NCBI RefSeq assembly: GCF_003591005.1
Contig: NZ_QYYD01000003.1
Coordinates: 62,001 to 126,000 of the forward strand
Source: Rhodopseudomonas palustris
Lineage (GTDB): Bacteria > Pseudomonadota > Alphaproteobacteria > Rhizobiales > Xanthobacteraceae
Direction: 5' to 3'
DNA: 64,000 nucleotides
Part shown: positions 41,490-55,559 of the stretch, piece by piece
Layout of the letters: each line of letters opens with the position of its first letter
How positions within the stretch are numbered: position 1 is the stretch's first letter
Notes under the pieces: generated by a model
What the model was told of the DNA's origin: nothing
The model's database searches: none
The model's input: the letters and a program-made list of their open reading frames with translations, nothing else
Made by a program: the position numbers and the translations under genes

Positions 41490-42221
41490 CTACTTCGCCC
41501 GAAACCGCTCCACAGCCTGCTGCAGCGTCACGGCGATAGCTGCGGTTTTGTCGCCGATGCGATACTCCGGGCCGGCGACGACGACCGATAATCTCCGCTC
41601 GCCGATCGGCAGCGGCACGGCGACGCCGGCGAGGTCGCGGCTGTAGTCGGCGAAGCTCTGACAGTAGCCGCGCTCCAGCGATTTGCGCAGTTCAGCCTCG
41701 ACCGCGTCGATGCTGATCGGGGTCGTGTGGTTGTACTGCTTGAACTCGATCTTGCGATATAGCGAGTCGCGCTCGTCCTTGGAGTATTGCAGCAGCAGCG
41801 CGCGGCCGCTCGATGTGGCGTGGATCGGCACGCGATGTCCGACCTTGGCGAAGTAACGGATTGCGGCGGCCGATTCGACGACGTCGATGAACACCGCCAT
41901 CACCCCGGACGGCGCGACGATCGCCACCGTCTCGCCGGTCTCGGCCGACAGCGCGGTGATCAGCGCGCGGGTCCAGCCGGGCAGCGGCTCGACCTCGGCG
42001 ACTTCGCGGGCCAGCACCAGCCAGCGCGGCGTCGGATAGTAGCCGGCGCGCGGGCGCGGCTCGTACAGATAGCCCTTCTCGGCCAGCGTCGTCAGCAGAT
42101 TGAAGGTCGAGGAGCGCGGCCAGCCGAAGTGATCGGCGATCTCGGCCAGCGTCGCCGGCTTCTTCACGCGCGCGAAGTATTCGAGGATCTCCAGAACGTT
42201 GACGGCCTGGCGGACGATCAT
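41490..42221 (-). CDS. IclR-family transcriptional regulator
   Basis: 243 aa. N-terminal winged helix with LAEIADHFGWPRSSTFNLL and the C-terminal IclR effector domain, including IPIHATSSGRALL and YCQSFADYSRDLAGVAVPL. Last gene of the run CaiB - MaoC - CitE - IclR, so it probably controls that operon and the divergent TRAP operon, whose shared promoter region carries a strong inverted repeat (44878-44893). Confidence 0.9.
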   Translation of the reverse strand: MIVRQAVNVLEILEYFARVKKPATLAEIADHFGWPRSSTFNLLTTLAEKGYLYEPRPRAGYYPTPRWLVLAREVAEVEPLPGWTRALITALSAETGETVAIVAPSGVMAVFIDVVESAAAIRYFAKVGHRVPIHATSSGRALLLQYSKDERDSLYRKIEFKQYNHTTPISIDAVEAELRKSLERGYCQSFADYSRDLAGVAVPLPIGERRLSVVVAGPEYRIGDKTAAIAVTLQQAVERFRAK

Positions 42222-42260: not shown

Positions 42261-43109
42261 CTAGTGACCAAGGATCTTTTGCGCCGCCCTGAGATGCGGC
42301 TTGTCGAGCATCCGGCCATCGAGCCGCAGCGTGCCGGCATTTGGATTGTCGGCAAACGCTGCGATCACTTTCTCGGCCCAAACGCGCTCGGCATCGGTCG
42401 GCGCGAAGGCGGAGTTGACGATGTCGACATGCTTGGGATGGATCAGCGCCTTGCAGGTGAAGCCGTCGCGCCGCGCCGCGCGGGTTTCGGCTTCGAGCCC
42501 GGCGAGGTTCTCGATGTCGGTGTAAACGGTGTCGATCGCCGTGACTTCGGCGGCCGCTGCGCCGATCAGGCACAGATCGCGTGCGAGGCGATAGGGGCTG
42601 TGGAACACGCCGCCGGAGCCGTTCTCGGTGGCGCCGAGCGAGGCGGCGAGATCTTCGGCGCCCCACATCATGCCAGCGAGCCGCGGCGAGCAATCCTTGT
42701 AGCTGCCGAGCCCGAACACCGAGCCGGCAGTCTCGGTCGCGACCACCACGATGCGGGTCGCGCCAGGCTCGGTGCCGGCCGCCGCCTCGAACGCATCGAG
42801 CCACAGCGCGACGTGGCGCACGTCATCGCCGCCGCGCGACTTCGGCAGCACGATGCCGTCCGGCCGCGCCGGCATGATGGCGGCAAGATCGCCGAGCGTG
42901 CGGCCGGTGTCGAGCGCGTTGACGCGGACATAGAGCAGCGGCTTGCCGCGCGGCGCTTCCAGCATCGTCCGAGTCAGGCCACGCGCTTCGTCCTTCTTCT
43001 CCGCCACCACGGAGTCCTCGAGGTCGATGATCAGCGCGTCGGCGTTGCCCTGCGACGCCTTCTCGAATTTGCGCGGGCTGTCGCCCGGCACGAACAGCAT
43101 CGAGCGCAT
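42261..43109 (-). CDS. HpcH/HpaI aldolase / CitE-like (citramalyl-CoA or malyl-CoA) lyase
   Basis: 282 aa. CitE-like TIM barrel: RSMLFVPGDSPRKFEKA, ADALIIDLEDSV, LYVRVNALDT, the Glu of VVATETAGSVFGL, MMWGAEDLAASLGA with the metal-binding Asp, and KALIHPKHVDIVN. Enzymes of this branch cleave citramalyl-CoA, malyl-CoA or methylmalyl-CoA. Start ATG 43109 overlaps the MaoC stop by one base (TGATG). With the MaoC hydratase and CoA-transferase genes it forms a likely C4/C5-dicarboxyl-CoA degradation set. Confidence 0.87.
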   Translation of the reverse strand: MRSMLFVPGDSPRKFEKASQGNADALIIDLEDSVVAEKKDEARGLTRTMLEAPRGKPLLYVRVNALDTGRTLGDLAAIMPARPDGIVLPKSRGGDDVRHVALWLDAFEAAAGTEPGATRIVVVATETAGSVFGLGSYKDCSPRLAGMMWGAEDLAASLGATENGSGGVFHSPYRLARDLCLIGAAAAEVTAIDTVYTDIENLAGLEAETRAARRDGFTCKALIHPKHVDIVNSAFAPTDAERVWAEKVIAAFADNPNAGTLRLDGRMLDKPHLRAAQKILGH

Positions 43110-43561
43110 CAGGCGGGCCTCTTGTGCATCAGCGCCATCCGGCGGCATTTGCCGACGATCTCGTCGTTCTGGTTAAGCGCGTGGTGCTCGAACTCGACGA
43201 TGCCGGCGTTCGGCCGCGACTTCGATTCGCGCACCGACAGCACCTTGGTGGTGGCGCGCAGCGTGTCGCCGTGAAACACTGGCTTGGGGAAGGTGACGTC
43301 GGTCATGCCGAGATTGGCCACCGTGGTGCCGAGCGTGGTGTCGTACACCGTCATGCCGATCATGATGCCGAGCGTGTACAGGCTGTTGAAGATGCGCTGG
43401 CCGAACTCGGTCTTCTCGGCGAAATGCGCGTCGATGTGCAGCGGTTGCGGGTTCAGCGTCAGCAGGCTGAACATGGTGTTGTCCATCTCGGTCACGGTGC
43501 GGGTCAGCGCGTGGCGAAACTCCTGACCGACCGAAAATTCCTCGAAATACATCCCTGCCAT
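43109..43561 (-). CDS. MaoC-family acyl-CoA hydratase
   Basis: 150 aa single hot-dog domain. The hydratase motif appears as [13 protein letters not shown], followed by the [13 protein letters not shown] helix and [14 protein letters not shown]. Family members add water to an enoyl-CoA. In context a mesaconyl-CoA or itaconyl-CoA hydratase making citramalyl-CoA is the best guess. ATG 43561 has AGGAGA seven bases upstream. Earlier open frame is a shadow of the CaiB gene. Confidence 0.86.
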
Positions 43562-43602
43562 GGTGTCGTCTCCTGGTGTTGTTGGGCTCGACTGGGCCAA
43601 TC

Positions 43603-44799
43603 TCAGTCTGGAAGCTGGACTGCTTTGCTGCGGCCCAGGCGCTCGATTTCTTCCGCCGTGAAGCCGGCCTCGCTCAGGATGTCGCGACCGTTGCCGCCGA
43701 GCGTCGGGGCAGGCCCGCCCGGCTGCGGCTGCGTCGCGCTCCAGGTCGACGGCACCTTCATCTGGCGAACGCGGCCTTCGACCGGATGCTCGATCGTCTC
43801 GAAGAAGCCGATGGCCTGCAGATGCGGATCCTCGAGGATCGACTCCATGCTGTGCATCGGCATCACCGGGATATCGGCGCGCTCGAGCAGTTCGCGCCAT
43901 TCCGCGGTGCTGCGGGTCAGGAAGATCGCGCCGATTTCCTCGTAGATCTCGTCGATATGCTTGGTGCGCGCGGCGTGGTTGGCAAAGCGCGGCTGCGCCA
44001 GAAAGTCGGTGCGGTCGATCGCTTCGAAGAAACTGCGCCATTGTTTGTCGTTGTAGATCAGCACGCAGAGGAAGCCGTCGCTGGTCTGGTACGGCTTGCG
44101 GTAGCGTGACAGCAGCCGGGCATAGCCGCCGTGGTCGAGCGGCGGGTCGTAAGTCAGGCCGCCGAGGTGATCGACCAGCACGAACGACGCCATCGATTCG
44201 AACATCGGCACGTCGATGCGCTGGCCTTCGCCGCTGCGCTGCTGATGCAGCAGCGCGCCCAGCATGGCGTTGACCGCCATCAGCCCGACGATTCGGTCGG
44301 CGATGGTGATCGGCACGTAGCGCGGCGTGCCGTCGCCGGCGGCGGCGAGCAGCGTCGGCACGCCGGCGGCGCCCTGGATCAGATCGTCATAGGCCGGCTT
44401 GGCGGCATAGGGGCCATCCTGGCCGTAGCCGAAGGCGCCGAGATAGACGATGCCGGGATTGACCGCGGCGACCTGCTCGTAGCTCAGCCCGAGCCGGGCC
44501 ATTGCCTGCGGCCGCACATTGTAGATCAGCGCATTGGCGCGCTCGGCGAGCCGCAGCAGCGCCTTGCGACCGTCGTCCTGCTTGAGATCGATGACGATGC
44601 TGCGCTTGCCGCGGTTGGTGTTGAGAAACATCCCGCCCATGCCCGGGGTCCGGCCCGGGCCGATGTGGCGGACGATGTCGCCGTCCGGACTTTCCACCTT
44701 GATGACGTCGGCGCCCATGTCGGCCAGCGTCTGGGTCGCATAGGGGCCCATCAGCACCGAGGTCAGATCGAGAATCGTGATGCCAGACAGAGGTCCCAA
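43603..44799 (-). CDS. CaiB/BaiF family (class III) CoA-transferase, TTG start
   Basis: 398 aa. Typical class III features: [62 protein letters not shown], and the predicted catalytic Asp in [12 protein letters not shown]. It transfers CoA between carboxylic acids, plausibly succinyl-CoA to a C5 diacid here. The start is TTG 44799, with GAAGGAA six bases upstream; the nearest ATG just before it runs into a stop. First gene of the CaiB - MaoC - CitE - IclR run. Confidence 0.87.
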
Positions 44800-44877
44800 C
44801 GGCCGTTCCTTCAGTTCATCGGTTTGTAGCTAGAATTCAGAAACATCGCCGGTCAATCGGTTTCGCTGCACGCTGAC

Positions 44878-44893
44878 TGCATGGCTGCATGCA
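44878..44893. promoter_or_regulatory. inverted repeat, candidate IclR operator
   Basis: TGCATG-GCTG-CATGCA, a perfect 6-bp inverted repeat with a 4-base spacer, in the divergent region between the CaiB and TRAP genes. It ends 12 bases upstream of the predicted TRAP -35 box. Position and size fit a regulator such as the IclR protein encoded at 41490-42221. Confidence 0.5.
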
Positions 44894-44905
44894 TTGTCCA
44901 TTACG

Positions 44906-44935
44906 TTGACTAATAAATTCACCTGTATGTACGAT
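44906..44935 (+). promoter_or_regulatory. predicted sigma-70 promoter for the TRAP operon
   Basis: TTGACT (44906-44911) and TACGAT (44930-44935) with an 18-base spacer, about 65 bases before the start codon of the TRAP binding protein. The local sequence is AT-rich compared with its surroundings. Pattern evidence only. Confidence 0.5.
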
Positions 44936-45006
44936 TGAAACATCAAGAAGCGGCGCCAGCCGCAACGTCGCCCGTTCGCAGGGCGACGGCTCAGGGAGGA
45001 CATCGG

Positions 45007-46023
45007 ATGCGGAAGAGCATGGCTTTGGCGGCGGCATTGGCGCTGCCGGTGACGATTGTGTCGGCCCAGGCGGTCGAGCTCAAGGTCGCCGACTCGTTTC
45101 CGGCCGGGCACTACCTTGTTCGCCTGATGCTCAAGCCGTGGATGGACGACGTCACCAAGCGCACCAACGGCGCGGTGACCTTCAGCTATTATCCCAATCA
45201 GCAGATGGGCAAGGCGACCGACCTGCTGCGGCTGACGCAGTCCGGCGTGGTCGATATCGGCTACATCGCGCCGTCTTATGCGTCCGACAAGATGCCGCTG
45301 TCGGAAGTGGCGCAGCTGCCGGAATCCTTCACCACCAGCTGCCAGGGCACGCTGGCCTATTGGAAGAGCGCGCGCGAGGGCGTGCTCGCCAAGCAGGAAT
45401 ACGCGCCCAACAAGATCAAGCTGCTGATGGCGGTGGTGTTGCCGCCCTATCAGGTCTTCACCGTCAAGCAGAAGGTCGACTCGATGGAGGCGATCCAGGG
45501 TCTCAAGCTGCGCTCGACAGGCGGCGCGCAGGACTTGACACTGCGGGCGCTGGGATCCGTGCCGGTGCGCATGGCGGCGCCGGACGCCTATGAGTCGCTG
45601 GCGCGCGGCACCATGGACGGCGTGCTGTTCCCGGCCGACAGCATCGCGTCCTACGGCCTCGACAAGCTGGTCAAGCACGCCACCGACGGTGTCAGCTTCG
45701 GCTCGTTCATCGTCGCTTATTCGATCAGCGAGCGAGCCTGGAACAAGCTGCCGGCCGACGCCAAGAAGGCGATGGAAGAAGCCTCCGAGGCGATCGAGTC
45801 CAAGGTTTGTGCCGATGTCGACAAGGAGCAGCAGCAGACCCGCAAGCAGCTCACCGACGCCGGCGTCAGCTTCGAACCGATCCCCGACGCCGCCAAGGCG
45901 CAGATGAAGGACAAGCTCATGGGCGTCGCCAAGGAATGGGCGGCCGGCATCGACTCGCGCGGCAAGCCGGGCACCGAGGCGCTCCTGGAATTCCAGAAGC
46001 TGCTCGCCGACACCGGCAAGTAA
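45007..46023 (+). CDS. TRAP transporter substrate-binding protein, DctP family
   Basis: 338 aa from ATG 45007 with AGGGAGGA upstream. Signal peptide residues 1-22 (ending SAQA); periplasmic. DctP-family features: the WMDDVTKRTNGAVTFSYYPNQQMGKATDLL opening in two parts, GLKLRSTGG with the Arg that usually binds the substrate carboxylate, and MDGVLFPADSIASY. It delivers an organic acid to the DctQM permease encoded downstream. Confidence 0.92.
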   Translation: MRKSMALAAALALPVTIVSAQAVELKVADSFPAGHYLVRLMLKPWMDDVTKRTNGAVTFSYYPNQQMGKATDLLRLTQSGVVDIGYIAPSYASDKMPLSEVAQLPESFTTSCQGTLAYWKSAREGVLAKQEYAPNKIKLLMAVVLPPYQVFTVKQKVDSMEAIQGLKLRSTGGAQDLTLRALGSVPVRMAAPDAYESLARGTMDGVLFPADSIASYGLDKLVKHATDGVSFGSFIVAYSISERAWNKLPADAKKAMEEASEAIESKVCADVDKEQQQTRKQLTDAGVSFEPIPDAAKAQMKDKLMGVAKEWAAGIDSRGKPGTEALLEFQKLLADTGK

Positions 46024-46052
46024 TCATCCGCCCTAACAGTGGAGACCGCGTG

Positions 46053-46604
46053 ATGCAGCGAGCCAGTGCCACGCTTGCAGCGCTCGAACGGGCGCTGACG
46101 CTGATCGCCGTCAGCTTCATGTTCGTAATCATGATGCTGGTGGTGGCGGATGTGTTCATGCGCTACGTGCTGAATCGCCCGTTCTCCTTCACCTACGATC
46201 TCATCGGCCTGTATTTGATGGCCGGCGTGTTCTTCCTGACGCTGTCGGACGCGCTGCGCGAGCACGTCCATGTCGGCGTCGACATCCTGGTGCCGCGGTT
46301 CTCGCCCGCGGGGCGGCGACTCGCCGAGATCGTCACCGCGCTCACCGGCCTGTTCGTGTTCGCACTGCTGTGCAAGGTCGGGTTCGACCGCGCGCTCGAT
46401 AATTTCGAGCAGAACGACGTGCTGTCCGGCGCGATCCCGTGGCCGACCTGGATCTCGGCGGCGTTGGTGCCGTTCGGCTGCGGCGTGCTGGTGCTGCGGC
46501 TGCTGCTGATGCTGGCCGGCCACGCGGCGAGCCTCGTCACCGGCCGCGATCTCTATCCGCTGCCGCCCCTGGTCGGGGTCGGCGAAGCCAAATCCTTCGA
46601 ATAG
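46053..46604 (+). CDS. TRAP transporter small permease, DctQ family
   Basis: 183 aa, four transmembrane helices, with the family motif VVADVFMRYVLNRPFSFTYDL and LREHVHVGVDIL. GGAGA lies seven bases before ATG 46053. Forms the membrane complex with DctM, encoded 11 bases downstream. Confidence 0.92.
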   Translation: MQRASATLAALERALTLIAVSFMFVIMMLVVADVFMRYVLNRPFSFTYDLIGLYLMAGVFFLTLSDALREHVHVGVDILVPRFSPAGRRLAEIVTALTGLFVFALLCKVGFDRALDNFEQNDVLSGAIPWPTWISAALVPFGCGVLVLRLLLMLAGHAASLVTGRDLYPLPPLVGVGEAKSFE

Positions 46605-46615
46605 CGGCACCTGAC

Positions 46616-47905
46616 ATGACAACCTTGATCGTTCTCGGCCTGCTGTTCGTCCTGCTCGCGATCGGCACGCCGGTCGGCTTTGCGATGGCGTTCTCCGGCT
46701 CGGTCGGCCTGCTAATGGTCGGCGGCACCGGCACGCTGTTCGGCATTCTGGAGACCGCGCCGTTGTCGACGGTGTCGTCCTACGAACTGATCACCATCCC
46801 GATGTTTCTGCTGATGGCCGAACTGGTGCTGCTGTCCGGCGTTGCCGATGCGCTGTTCAAGACCGCCTCGGCCTGGGTTGGGCGCATTCCCGGCGGCCTC
46901 GGCATGGCGACCGCGCTCGCCGGCGCCGGCTTCGGCGCGATCTGCGGCACCAGCACGGCGTCAGCCGCAACACTGTCGTCGACCAGCCTGCCGGCAATGA
47001 TCAAGCAGGGCTACGAGCCGAAGATGGCGGCCGGCGTGGTGGCAATCTCCGGCACGCTGGCGATGCTGATCCCGCCGAGCGTGGCGCTGGTGATCTTCGG
47101 CCTGCTCGCCGAAGTGAACATCGGCCAATTGCTGATCGGCGGCATCATTCCGGCTGCGCTGGTCACTGCGACCATCATGGCGACGATCTACGTGCTGGTC
47201 TGGCTCGATCCGTCGCGGGCGCCGCGCGTCGAATCGGTGCCGTGGCGCGAGCGATTTCTCCTGCTGTGGCAGATCGGGCCGATGCTGGCGCTGTTCGGGC
47301 TGGTCACCGGCACCATCTATCTCGGCGTCGCCACCCCGACCGAAGCCTCGGCGCTCGGCGCCGCCGGCGCGCTGGTGCTGGCGTTCGCCAAGCGCAAGGT
47401 AACGCCGCGGACGCTGTACAAGGCGCTGCTCAGCGCCAGCTACGGCACCTGCATGATCGTCACCATTCTGGTCGGTGCCTCGATCTTCGGATACTTCTTC
47501 ACCCTCACCCACGTCACCCAGGACCTGGTCGCCTGGGTCGGCTCGCTGGAAACGTCGCGCTGGGTGATCATCGTGCTGATCCTGTGCGGCTATATCGTGC
47601 TCGGCTCGTTCATGGACCAGATCGCCATTCTGGTGCTGACGGTGCCGATCGTGATGCCGTTGATCAAGTCGCTCGGCTTCGATCCGATCTGGTTCGGCGT
47701 GATCAAGATCGTCACCGCCGAAGTCGGCATGATCACGCCGCCGGTCGGCCTGAACTGCTTCATCGTCGCGCGCTATGCCAAGCGGCCGGTCGCCGAAGTC
47801 TTCCACGGCACCTTCCCGCACTTCATCGCGCATCTGCTCGCGATCGCCGTGATGGTGGCGTTCCCCAGCATCATCCTGTGGCTGCCGTCGCAGATGGCGC
47901 CTTAG
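46616..47905 (+). CDS. TRAP transporter large permease, DctM family
   Basis: 429 aa with about twelve hydrophobic segments. Signature stretches: LFVLLAIGTPVGFAMAFSG, GAGFGAICGTSTASAATLSS, IPPSVALVIFGLLAEVNIGQL and MITPPVGLNCFIVARYA. Ion-coupled import of the substrate bound by the DctP-type protein. Start ATG 46616; the earlier open frame lies over dctQ. Confidence 0.94.
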   Translation: MTTLIVLGLLFVLLAIGTPVGFAMAFSGSVGLLMVGGTGTLFGILETAPLSTVSSYELITIPMFLLMAELVLLSGVADALFKTASAWVGRIPGGLGMATALAGAGFGAICGTSTASAATLSSTSLPAMIKQGYEPKMAAGVVAISGTLAMLIPPSVALVIFGLLAEVNIGQLLIGGIIPAALVTATIMATIYVLVWLDPSRAPRVESVPWRERFLLLWQIGPMLALFGLVTGTIYLGVATPTEASALGAAGALVLAFAKRKVTPRTLYKALLSASYGTCMIVTILVGASIFGYFFTLTHVTQDLVAWVGSLETSRWVIIVLILCGYIVLGSFMDQIAILVLTVPIVMPLIKSLGFDPIWFGVIKIVTAEVGMITPPVGLNCFIVARYAKRPVAEVFHGTFPHFIAHLLAIAVMVAFPSIILWLPSQMAP

Positions 47906-47957
47906 CGCCGCTGCGTCGTCCGCCGATCTTTTCAGCAACAAACACAAAGAGCCAGCC

Positions 47958-49124
47958 ATGGACTTCGCCCTCACCGATCAGCAGCAAGCCATCCGCGACG
48001 CCATCGCCAAGATCTGCGAAGGATTCGACGACGCCTATTGGCTGAAGAAGGATCGCGAGGGCGGCTTCCCGCACGACTTCCACAAGGCGCTGGCCGACGC
48101 CGGCTGGCTCGGCATCTGCGTGCCGGAAGCCTATGGCGGCTCCGGCCTCGGCATCACCGAGGCGGCCATCATGATGCGCACGATCTCGGAGTCCGGCGCC
48201 GGCATGTCGGGTGCCTCGGCGGTGCATATCAACGTGTTCGGCCTCAATCCGGTGGTGGTGTTCGGCACCGAGGAGCAGCGCATGCGCATGCTGCCGCCGA
48301 TGGTCGAAGGCCGCGAAAAGGCGTGCTTCGCTGTGACCGAGCCGAACACCGGCCTCAACACCACGCAGCTCAAGACCCGCGCGGTGAAGAAAGGCGACCG
48401 CTACATCGTCAACGGCCAGAAGGTGTGGATCTCGACCGCGCAGGTCGCGCACAAGATCCTGCTGCTGGCGCGCACGACGCCGCTCGATGAGGTGAAGTCG
48501 CCGACCCACGGCCTCAGCCTGTTCTACACCGATTTCGATCGCACCAAGATCAAGGTGCACGAGATCGAGAAGATGGGCCGCAAGATCGTCGACTCCAACG
48601 AGCTGTTCTTCGAGGATTTCGAGATCCCGGAGGAAGATCGCATCGGCGAGGAAGGCAAGGGCTTTCAGTATATCCTCGAGGGCATGAACCCCGAGCGCGT
48701 GCTGATCGCCGCCGAGGCGGTCGGCCTCGGCCAATGCGCGCTGTCGCGCGCCACCGAGTATGCCAAGAGCCGGATCGTGTTCAACCGCCCGATCGGCCAG
48801 AACCAGGCGATCCAGCATCCGCTGGCGAAGAACTGGGTCGAGCTCGAAGCGGCGTGGCTGATGGTGATGTCGGCGGCGTGGCAATACGACAACGGCATGC
48901 CGTGCGGGGCCGCCGCGAACGCGGCGAAGTACCTCGCCGGCGAAGCCGGCTACCAGGCCTGCGAGCAGGCGGTGATGACCCATGGCGGCTTCGGCTACGC
49001 CAAAGAGTATCACGTCGAGCGCTACCTGCGCGAAGTGCTGATCCCGCGCATCGCGCCGGTCAGCCCGCAGCTCGCGCTCAGCTTCATCGCCGAGAAGGTG
49101 CTCGGCCTGGCGAAGTCGTACTGA
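47958..49124 (+). CDS. acyl-CoA dehydrogenase
   Basis: 388 aa, FAD enzyme. Flavin-contact segment CFAVTEPNTGLNTTQ and KVWISTAQVAHKIL, substrate segment GMNPERVLIAAEAVGLG, and the C-terminal GGFGYAKEYHVERYLRE with the Glu expected as the catalytic base. Same strand as the TRAP genes, 52 bases after dctM. In a C5-diacid pathway it could oxidise methylsuccinyl-CoA to mesaconyl-CoA, but this is inferred from context only; a branched or aryl acyl-CoA is equally possible. Confidence 0.88.
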   Translation: MDFALTDQQQAIRDAIAKICEGFDDAYWLKKDREGGFPHDFHKALADAGWLGICVPEAYGGSGLGITEAAIMMRTISESGAGMSGASAVHINVFGLNPVVVFGTEEQRMRMLPPMVEGREKACFAVTEPNTGLNTTQLKTRAVKKGDRYIVNGQKVWISTAQVAHKILLLARTTPLDEVKSPTHGLSLFYTDFDRTKIKVHEIEKMGRKIVDSNELFFEDFEIPEEDRIGEEGKGFQYILEGMNPERVLIAAEAVGLGQCALSRATEYAKSRIVFNRPIGQNQAIQHPLAKNWVELEAAWLMVMSAAWQYDNGMPCGAAANAAKYLAGEAGYQACEQAVMTHGGFGYAKEYHVERYLREVLIPRIAPVSPQLALSFIAEKVLGLAKSY

Positions 49125-49147
49125 TCGTAGGCTGCGGCGCGCCGCCG

Positions 49148-50383
49148 ATGTCCGCCACAAGCACGCTCGACTTTGACGGCCTGATCCGGGCCGGTGATCT
49201 CGTGGTTTGCGGCCAGGCCACCGCCGAGCCGCTGACGCTCACCGAAGCGCTGATGGCGCAGGCGGCAACTCTGCCGCCGTTCCGGCTGATGCTGGGGCCG
49301 GTGTTCTCGGAAACGTTCGCGCCGCCGCCGCCGAACGTCTCCTTCGTCAGTTACGGCGTGATCGGCAACGCGCGCAAGCTGGCACGTGCCGGCCGGCTCG
49401 ACGTCATCCCGAGCAACTACTCGGCGTTCTGCGCCGATTTTGCCACCGGACGCCACCGCGCAGATGTGGTGCTGGTCCAGCTCGCGGAAGCGGCTGATGG
49501 CCAACTCAGCGCCGGCCTGTCGTGCGACTATGTGATCGACGCGGCGCGCCGGGCCCGCTTGGTGATCGCCGAGATCAACCCGGACGCGCCGTTCACCTAT
49601 GGGGCCGAGTGGCCTGACGACATCGCGATCCACCACCGCGTCGCCGCGCGGCGCAAGCCGCTGGAGTTGCCGTCCGGCGCGGTCGATGACGTATCGCGCA
49701 GGATTGCCGCCCACGCGGCCGGGCTGATCGCCGACGGCGCGACGCTGCAGTTCGGCGTCGGCAAGATTCCCGATGCGATCCTGTCGTCGCTGACGCATGC
49801 CCGCGACCTCGGCATCCATTCCGGGCTGATCAACGACGCGGTGGTCGACCTGATCGAGCGCGGCGTCGTCACCAACGCCCGCAAGGGCATCGATCCCGGC
49901 ATTACGATTACCAATCAGCTGATCGGCACCCAGCGGCTGTACGGCTACGCGCATCAAAACAAAGCGGTGCTGATGCGGCCGGCCGCTTACACGCATGATC
50001 ACGGCGTGCTGCGGCGGATCAGCAAGCTCACCGCGATCAATTCGGCGCTGCAGGTCGGGCTGGACGGCAGCGTCAATGCCGAGACGCTGAACGGCGTCGC
50101 GATCGGCGCGATCGGCGGCCAGCTCGATTTCGTCCGCGGCGCCAATGCCTCGCCGGGCGGTCGCGCGATCATCGCGCTGCCGGCGTGCGGCCCGGACGGC
50201 TTCAGCCGCATCGTCGCGCAGGTCGACACGGTGACAACGCCGCGCGCCGATGTCGACGCCATCGTCACCGAATGGGGCGTCGCCGAACTGCGCGGCTGCG
50301 GCCTCGCCGAGCGCGCAAGGCGGATGATCGCGGTCGCGGCGCCGCAGCATCGCGACCGGCTGGCCGAGCAGGCCCGGATCTAA
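49148..50383 (+). CDS. acetyl-CoA hydrolase/transferase family CoA-transferase
   Basis: 411 aa. Class I CoA-transferase with two similar domains: an N-terminal MLGPVFSETF region, LVIAEINPDAPFTYG, the nucleotide-like loop LQFGVGKIPDAIL, LGIHSGLINDAVVDLIERG, and a late VRGANASPGGRAIIALPA. The group includes 4-hydroxybutyrate and itaconate CoA-transferases (RipA-like). ATG 49148 lies 23 bases after the acyl-CoA dehydrogenase stop. It is the activating step expected for the acid imported by the TRAP system. Confidence 0.85.
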   Translation: MSATSTLDFDGLIRAGDLVVCGQATAEPLTLTEALMAQAATLPPFRLMLGPVFSETFAPPPPNVSFVSYGVIGNARKLARAGRLDVIPSNYSAFCADFATGRHRADVVLVQLAEAADGQLSAGLSCDYVIDAARRARLVIAEINPDAPFTYGAEWPDDIAIHHRVAARRKPLELPSGAVDDVSRRIAAHAAGLIADGATLQFGVGKIPDAILSSLTHARDLGIHSGLINDAVVDLIERGVVTNARKGIDPGITITNQLIGTQRLYGYAHQNKAVLMRPAAYTHDHGVLRRISKLTAINSALQVGLDGSVNAETLNGVAIGAIGGQLDFVRGANASPGGRAIIALPACGPDGFSRIVAQVDTVTTPRADVDAIVTEWGVAELRGCGLAERARRMIAVAAPQHRDRLAEQARI

Positions 50384-50433: not shown

Positions 50434-51156
50434 TCAGGGCCGCAGGTCCATCTCGATGCGGACGAAATCGCCGCGGTAAGTCACTTCGGCCAGATAGATC
50501 ACGGTGCCGTCGGCGCTCGTGAAAACGCGCCGCACCTCGGCGACAGGCGAATTCAGCGGCACGTGGAGCAGGCGCGCGACGTCGACGTCGGCGGTGCCGA
50601 TCGTCAGGGTCTGGCGGGCGCGCACGATCTTGGGCTGCTTCAACTCGGCGAGAATCGGGATCACGGTCTCGCTGCGAAACCGTTTGGGCGAACGGCGGAA
50701 GACCGACTCGTCGAGATAGATCGAGATCACGCAATAGGGCTGTGCGGCGCGCGAATGCACCCGCCGCATGAAAACGTACTTGGCGGCGGCCTTGCCATCT
50801 TCCGGCAACAGCGGTGCGACGCTGCGGCTCTCGGAGATGGTGATGATCTCCGGCGACGTGTCGCGATACATCTCGGCGAGGTCGGCGAACGTGGTTTCGA
50901 CCCGCAGCCAGCGGTCTTGCCTGGCGCCGCCGGTGACAAACGTGCCGCGGCCCTGCTGGGCTTCCAGCGCGCCGTCGCGCGCCAGCAACTCGACCGCCTG
51001 GCGGATTGTAACGCGCGACACGCCGAATTCGGCGGCGAGCTGTTCGTTGGCGGGCAGGCGAAATCCGGTCGGCCACTGGCCGCGCGCGATCCGGCGACGG
51101 AAGATATCGGCGATCTGCGCGTATTTCGGCACGTGGCTATCCGAATCCAGATCCAT
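50434..51156 (-). CDS. GntR-family regulator with UTRA domain (HutC type)
   Basis: 240 aa. N-terminal winged helix: YAQIADIFRRRIARGQW, LPANEQLAAEFGVSRVTIRQ, GRGTFV. The C-terminal UTRA ligand domain includes VRRVFTSADGTVIYLAEVTYRGD. Start ATG 51156 (MDLDSDSHVPKYAQ), eight bases after the GMC oxidoreductase stop; the longer open frame overlaps that gene. Last gene of the minus-strand run enolase - GMC - GntR, so it likely represses the run and the divergent transporter. Confidence 0.9.
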   Translation of the reverse strand: MDLDSDSHVPKYAQIADIFRRRIARGQWPTGFRLPANEQLAAEFGVSRVTIRQAVELLARDGALEAQQGRGTFVTGGARQDRWLRVETTFADLAEMYRDTSPEIITISESRSVAPLLPEDGKAAAKYVFMRRVHSRAAQPYCVISIYLDESVFRRSPKRFRSETVIPILAELKQPKIVRARQTLTIGTADVDVARLLHVPLNSPVAEVRRVFTSADGTVIYLAEVTYRGDFVRIEMDLRP

Positions 51157-51164
51157 CGCGCGCC

Positions 51165-52757
51165 CTATCCTGGCTTGATCAACGCCGCGCCGTGTTCTCC
51201 GATCATCAGGCTGGTCGCGTTGGTGTTGGCCGATGTGATCTGCGGCATCACCGACGCGTCGATCACGCGCAGCCGTTCGACGCCGCGCACCCGCAGCTGC
51301 GGATCGAGCACGGCTTGCGCGTCGCTGCCCATCCGGCAGGTGCCGACGCAGTGAAACACGGTGCCCCCAGTGTTGCGGGCGAACTCCCACAGCGCCGCAC
51401 GGCTATTCGCCGCTGCGCCGGGCACGACTTCGAGGTCCCAAAGGTTGCTGAACGACGGTTGGCGGAAGATGTCGCGCAGCATCTCGAGCCCCGCCACGAT
51501 GGTCTTGCGGTCGATCTCCTCGGCGAAGTAGTTCGGCACGATGCGCGGTTGCTCGAACGGATCGGTTGAGCGGATCGCCAGATGCCCGCGCGAGCGCGCG
51601 TGGGCCTGCCACACCGACGCGGTGAAGCCAGAATAGCGGTGCAGCGGCGTGCCGGGCTTGTCGACCGACAGCGGCATGACGTTGAACTGCACGTCGGGGC
51701 GGCCGTCCTGCGCGTATTCGGTACACGCGGCGCCGCCGACCTGACCGGCGCCGACGGTCAGCGGCCCACGGCCGCTGGTCAGCCACTGCCAGCCCATCCG
51801 CGTCAGTTCGACCGGATTGCGGACGTGGTCGTTCAGCGACCATTTCTGATTGAGGCGTACGATCAGCCGCGCCTGATAGTGATCCTGGAGATTGGCGCCG
51901 ACCTCCGGCGCATCGGCGATCACCGGGATGCCGAGGCTGCGAAGCAAGTCGGCCGGGCCGATGCCGGACAGTTGCAGCAATTGCGGCGATTGCAGCGCGC
52001 CGGCCGACAGCACCACTTCGCGCGCGGCACGGGCGCGATGCACCTGGCCGCCAGCGATCCATTCGACGCCGGTGGCGGTCGTGCCGTCGAACGTCACCTT
52101 GCTGGCCTGCGCACGGGTGATGACGGTGAGGTTCGGCCGGTCCATGATCGGGCGCAGGAATGCCGAGGCTGCACTGGTGCGCCAATGGCGGCCGATGCCG
52201 AGCTGATAGCTGCCGACCCCGTAGGTCGTCTCCGCATTGAAATCCGGATTGCGCGGCAGGCCGAATTCGACGGCGGCCTCGACCCAGGCGGCGGAGGCCG
52301 GATTGTCGTTGCGCAAATCCGACACTTCGAACTCGCCGAGCGCGCCGTGATACTGGCTTTCGCCGCCGCGATAGCGCTCGGTGCGGCGGAAATGCGGCAG
52401 CACGTCGCGATACGACCAGCCGGTCGCGCCGAGCCGCTCCCAGTCGTCGAAGTCCTGATGCTGGCCGCGGATGAAGATCAGCCCGTTGATCGAGGAGGAG
52501 CCGCCGAGGACGCGGCCGCGCGGCCAGACGATGGCGCGGCCGCCGGTGCCCTCGCTCGGTTCGGTGGTGAACAGCCGGGCGAAGCGCTCGTCATAAATCG
52601 CCCGATAATAGCCGACCGGAATCTTGAGCCAGAAGTTACGGTCCGGGCCCCCGGCTTCAAGCAGCAGCACGCGGCAGGCCGGATCGGCCGAGAGCCGATT
52701 GGCGACTACACAGCCGGCCGATCCGGCGCCTACGATGATGTAGTCGTAGTCCGTCAT
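51165..52757 (-). CDS. GMC-family FAD oxidoreductase (choline-dehydrogenase-like)
   Basis: 530 aa from ATG 52757; an alternative ATG at 52775 would add six residues and overlap the enolase gene. FAD fold DYIIVGAGSAGCVVANRLS, GMC signature 1 WPRGRVLGGSSSINGL, signature 2 VVLSAGALQSPQLLQLSGIG in two parts, and the active-site His region TVFHCVGTCRMG plus the C-terminal ASVMPQITSANTNATS. It oxidises an alcohol; the substrate is unknown. Two bases separate it from the enolase-superfamily gene, so the two are likely one pathway. Confidence 0.88.
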   Translation of the reverse strand: MTDYDYIIVGAGSAGCVVANRLSADPACRVLLLEAGGPDRNFWLKIPVGYYRAIYDERFARLFTTEPSEGTGGRAIVWPRGRVLGGSSSINGLIFIRGQHQDFDDWERLGATGWSYRDVLPHFRRTERYRGGESQYHGALGEFEVSDLRNDNPASAAWVEAAVEFGLPRNPDFNAETTYGVGSYQLGIGRHWRTSAASAFLRPIMDRPNLTVITRAQASKVTFDGTTATGVEWIAGGQVHRARAAREVVLSAGALQSPQLLQLSGIGPADLLRSLGIPVIADAPEVGANLQDHYQARLIVRLNQKWSLNDHVRNPVELTRMGWQWLTSGRGPLTVGAGQVGGAACTEYAQDGRPDVQFNVMPLSVDKPGTPLHRYSGFTASVWQAHARSRGHLAIRSTDPFEQPRIVPNYFAEEIDRKTIVAGLEMLRDIFRQPSFSNLWDLEVVPGAAANSRAALWEFARNTGGTVFHCVGTCRMGSDAQAVLDPQLRVRGVERLRVIDASVMPQITSANTNATSLMIGEHGAALIKPG

Positions 52758-52759
52758 GG

Positions 52760-53884
52760 TCACGCCGTCCGCCATTGCGCGATCGCCGCGACGTCGGGCT
52801 CGAACCCCAGCCCCGGCGCTTCACCGAGCTCTATCCAGCCGTCGCGCACCGCGGCGACAGGGCCACAGAACTGATCGCGTAGGGGATTGTCGTTGCAATC
52901 GACCTCAAGCAGTCCGTTGCCACCGATGCCGGCGAGGAGATGAGCGGAGGCGAGCAGGCCGATGCCGCCGCCGAGATAATGCGGGCAGAACCGCTTGCCG
53001 GCGCCGCGGATCGCGCGGGCGATGCCGGCGCACAGCGACAGGCCGCCCCATTTGGCGATGTCCGGCTGGATCAAGCGGAGCACATCGCCGCCGATTGCCG
53101 CGTCAAAGCCGTCGCGGCTGGTGATGTTCTCGCCCGCCGCCAGCGGCACAGCGATTCCGTCCCGCAGCCGCTGCCAGTCGGCAAGCGGCCGGTCGGCGCG
53201 GATCGGTTCTTCGAGCCAGGCGAGATCGAAGGCGGCAAGGCGCGGTGTCATGGCCAATGCCTGATCGACCGACCAAGCCTGGTTGGCGTCCGCAGCGAGC
53301 GAGCCGTCACCGATCAGTCCGCGCAACGCCGCAAGGTTGGCGCTATCGACGTCGGCGCCGAAGCCGACCTTGAGCTTCAACGCCCGGTAGCCGCGCTGCA
53401 ACGCGGCCTCGGCCATCGCTGCGGTGCCGGTCGGGTTGATGCCGCTGGCATATACCTGGATACGCGGCGAAGCGCCGCCCAGCAGCCGCCACAGCGGCGT
53501 GTTGCGGCGGCGCGCGAACAGATCCCATACGGCGAGGTCGATGCCCGCAATTGCTTGCGCGAACGGCCCGGCTTCGCCGGATTGCAGCGCCAGCACGGCC
53601 GTAGCATTCGTTAGTTGTTCGAACAGCTCGGCCGGCGCGGACATGCGCTGGCCGACCACCAATGGCGCCAGGGTTTCGTTGATCAGCCGCGCGCGATGCT
53701 CGGCGCCCGGCGATGGAAAGTTGCACCACGCTTCGCCCCAGCCGACCGTGCCGTCGTGGTCCTCGACGCGGACGAATACGGCCGGCCGCGACGTCATACG
53801 GCCGAACGAGGTCACCACCGGCGTCGTCAGCGGATAGCGATAGGCGAATGCCTGCAGGCTGCGGATCGTGAAGGGCGTGGTCAT
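52760..53884 (-). CDS. enolase-superfamily enzyme (mandelate racemase / muconate lactonizing type)
   Basis: 374 aa from ATG 53884, with AAGG upstream; GTG 53902 is less likely. An N-terminal capping domain and a barrel with the catalytic Lys pair K170-x-K172 (ALKLKVGFG), metal ligands Asp199 (ADANQAW), Glu225 (WLEEP) and Glu252 (AAGENI), and Lys278 in QPDIAKWGG on the opposite face. Two Lys acid/bases point to the MLE subgroup: racemase, epimerase, dehydratase or cycloisomerase. Substrate unknown; probably the acid imported by the divergent ABC system. Confidence 0.87.
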   Translation of the reverse strand: MTTPFTIRSLQAFAYRYPLTTPVVTSFGRMTSRPAVFVRVEDHDGTVGWGEAWCNFPSPGAEHRARLINETLAPLVVGQRMSAPAELFEQLTNATAVLALQSGEAGPFAQAIAGIDLAVWDLFARRRNTPLWRLLGGASPRIQVYASGINPTGTAAMAEAALQRGYRALKLKVGFGADVDSANLAALRGLIGDGSLAADANQAWSVDQALAMTPRLAAFDLAWLEEPIRADRPLADWQRLRDGIAVPLAAGENITSRDGFDAAIGGDVLRLIQPDIAKWGGLSLCAGIARAIRGAGKRFCPHYLGGGIGLLASAHLLAGIGGNGLLEVDCNDNPLRDQFCGPVAAVRDGWIELGEAPGLGFEPDVAAIAQWRTA

Positions 53885-53922
53885 CTGAACCTTGCGGCGC
53901 ACGCGCGCTGCGCTCTTGTCTG

Positions 53923-53944
53923 GTCATCCTATTTATAATATGAC
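53923..53944. promoter_or_regulatory. AT-rich inverted repeat between the divergent catabolic and transport genes
   Basis: GTCAT (53923-53927) and ATGAC (53940-53944) flank the AT-rich CCTATTTATAAT core, which itself contains TATAAT. It lies in the 98-base gap between the enolase gene and the ABC permease gene and probably combines promoter and operator, presumably for the nearby GntR/UTRA regulator. Confidence 0.45.
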
Positions 53945-53982
53945 TTGCCGCCAACACAAATGAGAAATGGGGAAGCTCCTGG

Positions 53983-54753
53983 ATGGACGGCGCCTTCGTC
54001 CGACGCTTTGCACTCGGGCTGTTGCCGTGGCTCGGCGCGATCCTGCTGTGGTACGGCGTGCGCTGGAGCGGGCTTGTCAATCCGTCGCTGATCCCGGCGC
54101 CGCATCAGGTCGCCGCCAAGTTCTTCGAGCTGCTGACGCGCGAGAACCTGCTGCTCGACATCTACACGTCGACGCGCCGGGTGTTTCTTGGTGTTCTGTT
54201 CGGCATCGCCGCGGCGGTACCGGTCGGCTTTCTGCTTGGTTGGTATCGCTCGGCGCGTACCTTTGCGGATCCGATGATCAATTTCTTCCGCGCGCTGCCG
54301 CCGATTGCGCTAATCCCGCTGGTGATCGTGTATTTCGGCGTCGATGAGCTCGCCAAGCTGGTGATCCTGTTCTACGCCTCGTTCTTCGCCGGCGTCATCG
54401 TGATGTACGAAGGCGTGTCGCAGATCGCGCCGATCTACATCCGCGTCGCACAGACGCTCGGTGCCAATCAGTTCGAGATTTTCCGCAAGGTCATCATCCC
54501 GCTCACCGTGCCGCACATCCTCACGGCGCTGCGCGTGGCGCTCGGCGTCGCGTGGGCGACCCTGGTAGCGTCCGAACTGATCGCCGCGCAGCGCGGCCTC
54601 GGCGCCATGATCCAGAACGCCTCGACCTATTTTCTGCTCGACGTCATCTATGTGGGCATCATCTGCATCGGACTGATTGCGCTGATCATGGATCTCATTC
54701 TGCGCAAGATCAGTGCGCGATTGCTGGTGTGGCAGGATCGGGCCGTCGGATGA
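53983..54753 (+). CDS. ABC transporter permease, SsuC/TauC (nitrate/sulfonate/taurine) family
   Basis: 256 aa with about six hydrophobic segments, LLPWLGAILLWYGVRWSG at the start, FFRALPPIALIPLVIVYFG in the middle, and the EAA loop RVAQTLGANQFEIFRKVIIP. It transports a small organic anion with the ATPase encoded next (4-base ATGA overlap) and the binding protein that follows. The divergent GMC/enolase genes suggest a carboxylated alcohol or sugar acid rather than a sulfonate. Confidence 0.9.
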   Translation: MDGAFVRRFALGLLPWLGAILLWYGVRWSGLVNPSLIPAPHQVAAKFFELLTRENLLLDIYTSTRRVFLGVLFGIAAAVPVGFLLGWYRSARTFADPMINFFRALPPIALIPLVIVYFGVDELAKLVILFYASFFAGVIVMYEGVSQIAPIYIRVAQTLGANQFEIFRKVIIPLTVPHILTALRVALGVAWATLVASELIAAQRGLGAMIQNASTYFLLDVIYVGIICIGLIALIMDLILRKISARLLVWQDRAVG

Positions 54754-55559
54754 TCAAGCGCGCGCAATTCGACCACGTCTCGCTGTCCTTCGCGACCGCC
54801 AAGGGACGCCTGCATGTGGTCGAGGATGTCCACTACGACATCGACGATGGCGACTTCATCGCGGTGATCGGCCCGTCCGGCTGCGGCAAGACCACCATGA
54901 TGAGCATGCTGGCCGGCTTCCAGAAGCCGACCACCGGGCGCGTGCTGTTCGACGGCAAGCCGGTTGAGAAGCCGGGCCCGGAGCGCGGCGTGATCTTCCA
55001 GGAATACGGCGTGTTCCCGTGGCTGACCGTGAAGCAGAACATCGCGTTCGGCCTGACGCTCGACGCCAATCGCGTCCCTGCGAGCGAACGCGAAGATATC
55101 TGCCGGCACTATCTCGAGCTGATGGGGCTGTCGGACTTCGCCAATTCCTATCCGAAGCATCTGTCGGGCGGCATGAAGCAGCGCCTTGCGATCGCGCGCG
55201 CCTATGCGGCGCGGCCGCAGTTCCTGCTGATGGACGAGCCGTTCGGCGCGCTCGACGCGCAGACCCGCGCCAACATGCAGAACCTGCTGCTGCAGGTGCT
55301 GGCCGCCGAGCGCAAGACGGTGATGCTGATCACCCATTCGGTGGAGGAGGCGATTTATCTGGCTTCGCGCATCGTCGTGGTGACGGCGCGGCCGGCGCGG
55401 ATCAAGCAGATCATCGACGTGCCGTTCCCATATCCCCGCGACGATTCGATCCACGAGCGTCCTGAATTCGCCGAGCTGCGCGGCCATATTCGCCAGCTGG
55501 TGATGGACGAATACCGGGCCCAGCAGGCGCAGATGCGGCCGGCCTCATTTTCGGAATAA
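54750..55559 (+). CDS. ABC transporter ATP-binding protein, SsuB/TauB family
   Basis: 269 aa. Walker A GPSGCGKTT, Q-loop VIFQEYGVFPWL, signature LSGGMKQRLAIARAY, Walker B FLLMDEPFGALD, H-loop LITHSVEEAIYLA. Start ATG 54750 overlaps the permease stop by four bases. The earlier open frame is a shadow of the permease. Confidence 0.94.
   Translation: MIKRAQFDHVSLSFATAKGRLHVVEDVHYDIDDGDFIAVIGPSGCGKTTMMSMLAGFQKPTTGRVLFDGKPVEKPGPERGVIFQEYGVFPWLTVKQNIAFGLTLDANRVPASEREDICRHYLELMGLSDFANSYPKHLSGGMKQRLAIARAYAARPQFLLMDEPFGALDAQTRANMQNLLLQVLAAERKTVMLITHSVEEAIYLASRIVVVTARPARIKQIIDVPFPYPRDDSIHERPEFAELRGHIRQLVMDEYRAQQAQMRPASFSE

Follow-up and report, generated by a model that had tools for sequence, protein, structure and literature searches.

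Itaconate breakdown is described in two convergent forms in the available text of PMC12290011, PMC9875883 and PMC12599236, and the same portions of these papers present PA0878-0886 of P. aeruginosa as a working cluster that encodes a tripartite ATP-independent periplasmic (TRAP) transporter, Ict, Ich, Ccl, an acyl-CoA dehydrogenase (ACDH; Mcd) and also an MmgE/PrpD methylsuccinate isomerase. From anaerobic naphthalene degradation, the accessible part of PMC11659651 reports ThnP, a Cat1-type protein with glycine in place of the catalytic glutamate, which moves CoA within a dicarboxylate, its substrate being a glutarate-like cyclohexane diacid; there, ThnP is followed by an ACDH and then probably by a hydratase and a not-yet-identified lyase acting on a tertiary alcohol. 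Here we describe a locus of Rhodopseudomonas palustris that has genes for all four kinds of activity in the ThnP route. It lies in a window of 64,000 nucleotides (the whole stretch of DNA analysed) on contig C33 of a draft genome of 5.62 Mb. The locus is likely to serve the CoA-dependent breakdown of a dicarboxylate that is taken up, activated, desaturated, hydrated and cleaved by a lyase, and we read it, with a probability of about 0.42, as a module for an imported beta-branched diacid, which would most likely be a C6 acid of the glutarate type, such as 3-methylglutarate or 3-methylglutaconate.

The genes form two divergent operons around a conserved promoter region. The minus strand carries the genes for CaiB, MaoC, CitE and IclR, the plus strand those for DctPQM, the ACDH and a protein resembling class I CoA-transferases. 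An earlier note on this DNA had named these two operons, and all the genes it named were recovered with Pfam, essentially at the positions given; they are open and intact, score above the Pfam cut-offs, and are spaced within each strand by a one-base overlap or by at most 52 bases. The interval of that note, 42261-50383, encloses the enzymes and the TRAP genes and leaves the IclR gene outside, at 41490-42221. None of the route's enzymes reached an equivalog cut-off of NCBIfam, so that assignment by NCBIfam names was dropped.

In the proposed pathway, the diacid would be imported by DctPQM, and one of its carboxyls would be activated by CaiB through CoA transfer. The class I protein, which lacks the catalytic glutamate, would then shift the CoA to the other carboxyl in an intramolecular, ThnP-like reaction, which would place the thioester at the correct end. 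Afterwards, the ACDH would desaturate the compound beside its branched beta-carbon, MaoC would add water to give a tertiary alcohol (a 3-hydroxy-3-methyl acyl-CoA), and the CitE-like lyase would release acetyl-CoA and an oxo acid (acetoacetate if C6), both operons presumably being controlled by IclR via the shared intergenic region. The analysis establishes which genes are present and how they are conserved, where the proteins fall in trees, their active-site residues and the conserved intergenic elements, whereas all substrates, all reactions and the role of IclR are inferred. The general route of the earlier note, from import and CoA activation to the lyase step, is supported; membership in either of the itaconate systems is not.

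The glutamate-less Cat1-type protein and the dehydrogenase

The notable feature of the locus is its class I (Cat1-type) protein (49148..50383, plus strand; PF13336, E 1.1e-47). Five PDB sequences of 4-hydroxybutyrate CoA-transferases match it at E<=1.1e-62, as befits a member of the Cat1 fold family. The catalytic glutamate (E238 of 3gk7), present at this column in the three PDB chains compared, is glycine in the window protein and in 26/26 relatives in the fetched loci. Without this glutamate, the name of a second CoA-transferase, used in the earlier note, is unsafe, and the equation of this protein with Ict/RipA is probably wrong. ThnP is the sole characterised enzyme that we found with the same change. 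When ThnP was described, the mechanism of such glutamate-less enzymes was left open, according to the accessible text (PMC11659651); if our reading is true, the locus would assign a function to these relatives of class I CoA-transferases and make them accessible to genetics.

Glutamate-less Cat1-like proteins were also common in a class-wide sample (L174-L197), mostly with no CitE gene detected adjoining them. At two places of this kind (L181, L187), the protein was found near a CaiB/ACDH/MaoC set of the type seen in locus L062, together with MmgE relatives. A weak paralogue in genome G082 retains the glutamate. Furthermore, MaoC-CitE-ACDH sets that include BKACE, which we take to be a beta-keto acid cleavage enzyme, were observed in L055, L058, L059, L108, L114, L120 and L142, partly from sphingomonads and often with a Cat1-like protein, which is glutamate-less in L055, L058, L059, L108 and L114. 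These BKACE-bearing sets suggest a pathway akin to that of the window but yielding a larger beta-keto acid.

In the ACDH (47958..49124, plus strand; PF00441/02770/02771), Glu occupies the column that we take to hold the base in isovaleryl-CoA dehydrogenase, and Pro occupies the column that we take to hold the usual base, where the enzyme of L062 has Glu; both traits are shared by all window-type ACDHs examined (51/51 in each case). Long-chain ACDHs also have Glu in the former column. A quick tree built with few outgroups placed 23 rows of the window type and 14 rows of the type of the pseudomonadal cluster in sister groups, with SH-aLRT values of 99 for each and for both together. Members from C. 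necator and P. aeruginosa have been assayed in print, and the pseudomonadal-type rows were assigned to these enzymes by gene order. The active-site residues together with the sister relation to the ACDH of the methylsuccinate cluster support a beta-branched dicarboxyl-CoA as the probable substrate. Compared with the putative methylsuccinyl-C4-CoA dehydrogenases of the pseudomonadal clusters, the window enzyme, which the earlier note had linked to methylsuccinate, belongs to a sister subfamily at 44-48% identity.

The lyase, its relatives and the itaconate clusters

The gene for the CitE-like CoA-ester lyase of HpcH/HpaI fold (42261..43109, minus strand; PF03328 + PF15617) most likely starts at 43109, in a one-base overlap with the stop of the MaoC gene. 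For the lyase tree, 113 rows were cut to 79 at 90% identity, with L061 and L064 left out; its sampling is lopsided, since similarity to the window type was the criterion for fetching loci. The window lyase falls within a clade of 27 rows (99/97), and a branch with support of 100/98 parts the MaoC-linked lyases, the window's included, from the pseudomonadal-type lyase of PDB 8khl, Rv2498c, L060 and L062, which sit on long branches, so that the grouping among these four is unsure. The phylogenetic check suggested in the earlier note thus places the lyase outside the P. aeruginosa-type branch.

At the eight Mg and substrate residues named for the beta-hydroxyacyl-CoA lyase Rv2498c (PMC6689899), the window lyase is identical to that enzyme (8/8; R64, E112, M133, G135, A136, E137, D138, V181). 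The same eight-residue string occurs in 13/26 other rows of the clade, and the remaining 13/26 differ from it by 1-2 changes; Met148 is found in 23/26 rows. Rv2498c cleaves (R)-3-hydroxy-3-methylglutaryl-CoA (HMG-CoA) and (S)-citramalyl-CoA about equally (kcat/Km of 3.9 and 2.3 x 10^5; PMC6689899), and therefore the lyase alone cannot separate a C5 from a C6 substrate.

Within the wider MaoC-linked group, several lyases stand in telling contexts. Two of them (Rhizobium L054; L138) are encoded in leucine operons together with isovaleryl-CoA dehydrogenase and with methylcrotonyl-CoA carboxylase (MCC); further members comprise one adjoining a biotin-dependent carboxylase (L056, Tistrella), one adjoining an acetoacetate:CoA ligase (L057, Azoarcus) and two adjoining BKACE (L058, L059). 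Because these relatives adjoin leucine genes, acetoacetate:CoA ligase and BKACE, the contexts of the neighbouring clades suggest that MaoC-linked lyases may yield beta-keto acids. Relatives located in leucine operons would also agree with a role of the lyase and hydratase in leucine breakdown through (R)-HMG-CoA, as in M. tuberculosis, but such a role is highly improbable here. On contig C14, the same genome encodes a classical-family HMG-CoA lyase that scores above cut-off and is separated by about 2 kb from the gene of a carboxylase that shares 68% identity with Rhizobium MCC-beta; no MCC match was found in the window, and an isovaleryl-CoA dehydrogenase query matched the window ACDH at 30% and one partial place elsewhere. 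Based on the classical HMG-CoA lyase near MCC on another contig, the leucine role was rejected for this genome.

The MaoC single-hotdog enoyl-CoA hydratase (43109..43561, minus strand; 150 aa; PF01575, PF19315) is the sole match of its kind in its own genome at E<=1e-20. The CaiB family III CoA-transferase (43603..44799, minus strand; PF02515) starts with TTG at 44799, and the Asp of its IADRIVG motif aligns to the column that we presume to be catalytic in this family. Its best NCBIfam model is succinate--glutarate CoA-transferase (223 of 750 bits); an identity as mesaconyl-CoA isomerase (Mct) was ruled out with 59 of 725 bits.

Clusters of the pseudomonadal type were fetched with the sequence of PDB 8khl, which matched in 23/398 genomes, and 11 regions were taken (L207-L217). 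The CaiB-type transferase and the MaoC-like hydratase of the P. aeruginosa cluster were read from these clusters, six of which (L207, L209, L210, L211, L213, L214) hold MaoC, ACDH, MmgE, CaiB and lyase together. Compared with the proteins of the window, the lyases of the 11 regions are 30-34% identical and, where present, the CaiB proteins 28-34% and the cluster ACDHs 44-48%. The window MaoC found no match at the Ich gene in L207-L217 and one match of 34% elsewhere in L215. Seven MmgE/PrpD proteins gave no match in the window (tblastn, E<=1e-3). The lyase of L060 (Paraburkholderia) scored 188 bits against 8khl, and this locus was taken as pseudomonadal in type because its CaiB (60-67%) recurs in eight and its ACDH (75-79%) in seven of L207-L215.

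These comparisons bear on a serious rival, namely that the locus is a third, independently assembled C5 route, in which itaconate, methylsuccinate, mesaconate or citramalate would be converted to citramalyl-CoA and then to acetyl-CoA and pyruvate. We regard this as possible, though somewhat less likely than the C6 reading. It would account for enzyme kinds and a TRAP transporter like those of the P. aeruginosa cluster, as far as the accessible text describes it (PMC9875883, PMC12290011, PMC12599236), for the sister position of the ACDH, and for the active site resembling that of Rv2498c, which takes (S)-citramalyl-CoA (PMC6689899). Against it stand the low identities of CitE and CaiB, the MaoC protein unmatched at the Ich gene and the absence of an MmgE/PrpD match in the window, as well as NCBIfam scores far below cut-off for RipC (163 of 375 bits) and RipB (133 of 340 bits), to which the mesaconate CoA-transferase model (213 of 700 bits) can be added. 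In addition, the solute-binding protein stays below the cut-off of TIGR00787 dctP (58 of 175 bits), and the IctP entries 9HT3/9HT4 are not in the best 60 of its 90 PDB matches. The kinship to the itaconate systems assumed in the earlier note could accordingly not be upheld at the level of RipB/RipC, CitE, CaiB and MaoC.

Recurrence, uptake and control of the module

At least 80 named loci were kept, of which 38 were assigned to the window's lyase clade, and their neighbours were counted within 9.5 kb of the lyase; the counts are lower bounds, because identity cut-offs were chosen manually and several loci are incomplete, some of them cut by contig ends. Near the 38 listed clade lyases, we detected MaoC at least 32 times, ACDH at least 25 times and CaiB at least 22 times, TRAP and IclR at least 17 times each (IclR at 45% or more), the class I protein at least 13 times, an AMP-binding ligase at least nine times and MmgE at least once (L094). 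All five enzymes stand together in at least 13/38 of these loci, including Bradyrhizobium, Afipia, Mesorhizobium and one betaproteobacterial metagenome-assembled genome (L110), where the genes of the set follow one another directly on a single strand. Since the five enzymes recur in this way across genera, their grouping is more than chance.

Searching 149 genomes of the family at E<=1e-40 revealed a lyase relative in 104/149, with a best match of at least 60% identity in only 22 of those 104. The full module with IclR and TRAP was found in the window and in L033-L035, from three other genomes; these three, like several named Bradyrhizobium, also share the divergent gene order that includes IclR. 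Of the seven genomes of the genus that were listed, the window's own among them, three carry the module (G000, G141, G125) and two gave no lyase match. Reduced loci, in which a lyase and a divergent ACDH alone of the module were found, occur in L039 and L041/L083 (Rhodopseudomonas) and in L075, L080 and L082 (Bradyrhizobium); in the whole genomes G028, G108 and G064, which have reduced loci, no MaoC relative was found at E<=1e-20. Many Alphaproteobacteria harbor a MaoC-CitE pair with the ACDH and CaiB of the module undetected nearby (L102, L105-L107, L115, L123, L134 and others), and in L102, a DUF2336 gene lies close to this pair.

For uptake, the plus strand encodes a DctP-type TRAP solute-binding protein (45007..46023; PF03480), the small permease DctQ (46053..46604; PF04290) and the large permease DctM (46616..47905; PF06808, with TIGR00786 above cut-off). 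The binding protein reached 101 bits with TRAP_S1, a broad model whose cut-off is 50 bits, and the nearest solved chains among the matches listed were 4p56, 7nqg and 4n6d, all of them weak (96-112 bits). Of these, 4p56 and 7nqg, whose ligands we presume to be aromatic, would fit the same chemistry acting on a bulkier or alicyclic or aryl-substituted diacid in the style of the lower anaerobic naphthalene route, leading to a larger beta-keto acid that would be activated by the AMP-binding ligase of the relatives. The latter is encoded near at least 9/38 listed clade lyases, and ThnP with its cyclohexane diacid, as described in the accessible text, would be a precedent (PMC11659651). Nevertheless, we consider a bulkier substrate unlikely, because the lyase retains the Met/Val pocket that contacts the methyl group in Rv2498c (PMC6689899), the binding protein has only weak matches in the PDB, and no AMP-ligase match was found in the window at E<=1e-10.

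The IclR-family regulator (41490..42221, minus strand; PF01614/PF09339) may act on the region between CaiB and DctP, which holds two candidate control elements of the form TTCA-N17-TTCA, one on the CaiB side (44815..44839, plus strand) and a second, with one mismatch, on the DctP side (44897..44921, plus strand). Two or more such elements (<=1 mismatch) were detected in 15/15 intergenic regions, the window's included, that had been chosen for both flanking genes, compared with 0.06 per region expected after shuffling; as the pattern was derived from the same 15 sequences, this indicates conservation and not binding. By itself the pattern is not rare in the window (20 on the plus strand, both elements included, and 18 on the minus strand, <=1 mismatch), and therefore only its conserved position in the 15 regions counts. 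The two operons of the earlier note thus have a conserved intergenic region in common.

Several observations weigh against a C6 diacid handled through a ThnP-like shift. The nearest solved relatives of the binding protein presumably bind bulkier or aromatic acids. A C5 substrate also fits, since Rv2498c takes both sizes about equally well and the sister group of the ACDH is of a C5 type. The beta-keto argument depends on neighbouring clades rather than on the window's own; lyases from those clades have Thr for Met148 in 6/6 and Leu or Ile for Val195 in 5/6, and MCC or isovaleryl-CoA dehydrogenase, BKACE and acetoacetate ligase were found near 0 of the 38 listed clade lyases. In the same genus, G028 and G108 have the lyase and ACDH alone of the module, for which the scheme offers no explanation. 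The class-wide sample of Cat1-like places showed Gly in 18/24 and Glu in 6/24, with a detected CitE neighbour at only 1/18 of the Gly-bearing places, and thus the glycine marks a broad Cat1 subgroup and not the module. Moreover, the class I protein is likened to ThnP by its published description and not by the ThnP sequence, and the alternative glutamate proposed for ThnP (E269, a column placed by AbfT numbering) is Gln in 15/27 and Glu in 0/27.

Adjoining the module, window positions 50434-55559 hold a separate group of genes for a GntR regulator, a GMC oxidoreductase, an enzyme of the enolase superfamily, and an ABC permease resembling TauC together with an ATPase.

Comparison with known systems

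In the open-licence PMC literature, as far as its accessible text extends (including PMC4213383 and PMC8307300), we found no specific account of the module or of bacterial 3-methylglutarate breakdown. The view in the earlier note that this gene combination had not been described is right in part only, since a similar set has been published as PA0878-0886, which lacks the class I protein and has an MmgE/PrpD isomerase. More tentatively, the locus may represent a third, independently assembled dicarboxyl-CoA route in many Bradyrhizobium and relatives, in which a 3-methylglutarate-type diacid would be loaded by CaiB, its CoA shifted by the glutamate-less class I protein, and the product desaturated, hydrated and cleaved by the lyase. 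Such a route would be an aerobic soil counterpart of the ThnP-ThnO steps and would point to a general role for glutamate-less Cat1 proteins. If so, resemblance alone would be no ground for annotating these genes as itaconate degradation, and one could begin to test where acids of the 3-methylglutarate type in soil come from.

The itaconate-methylsuccinate cluster of P. aeruginosa and C. necator (ich-mcd-mmgE-ict-ccl) shares with the window a CaiB-type transferase, a MaoC-like hydratase, a CitE-like lyase and an ACDH, and the TRAP uptake of the window is like IctPQM of P. aeruginosa. In contrast to this cluster, the enzymes of the window are non-orthologous, its ACDH belongs to a sister subfamily, MmgE/PrpD is unmatched, and a glutamate-less class I protein is added; the regulator in the window is of the IclR family. 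With the Yersinia-type rip operon (RipA/RipB/RipC), the window has in common a class I fold, a small MaoC hydratase and a CitE-like lyase, but it differs by the Gly in place of the catalytic Glu and by additionally encoding CaiB, ACDH and TRAP. Rv2498c equals the window lyase at the eight active-site residues, but lies on another, long branch of the tree and comes from another kind of bacterium. As far as the accessible description goes, ThnP-ThnO and the window both combine a Gly-bearing Cat1 protein with an ACDH, which in the thn route acts next to a tertiary carbon, while the thn genes belong to other organisms and their substrate is a cyclohexane diacid. Altogether, by sequence comparison, the enzymes of the window are alike in outline to those of the itaconate clusters, but the set is built from different enzymes.

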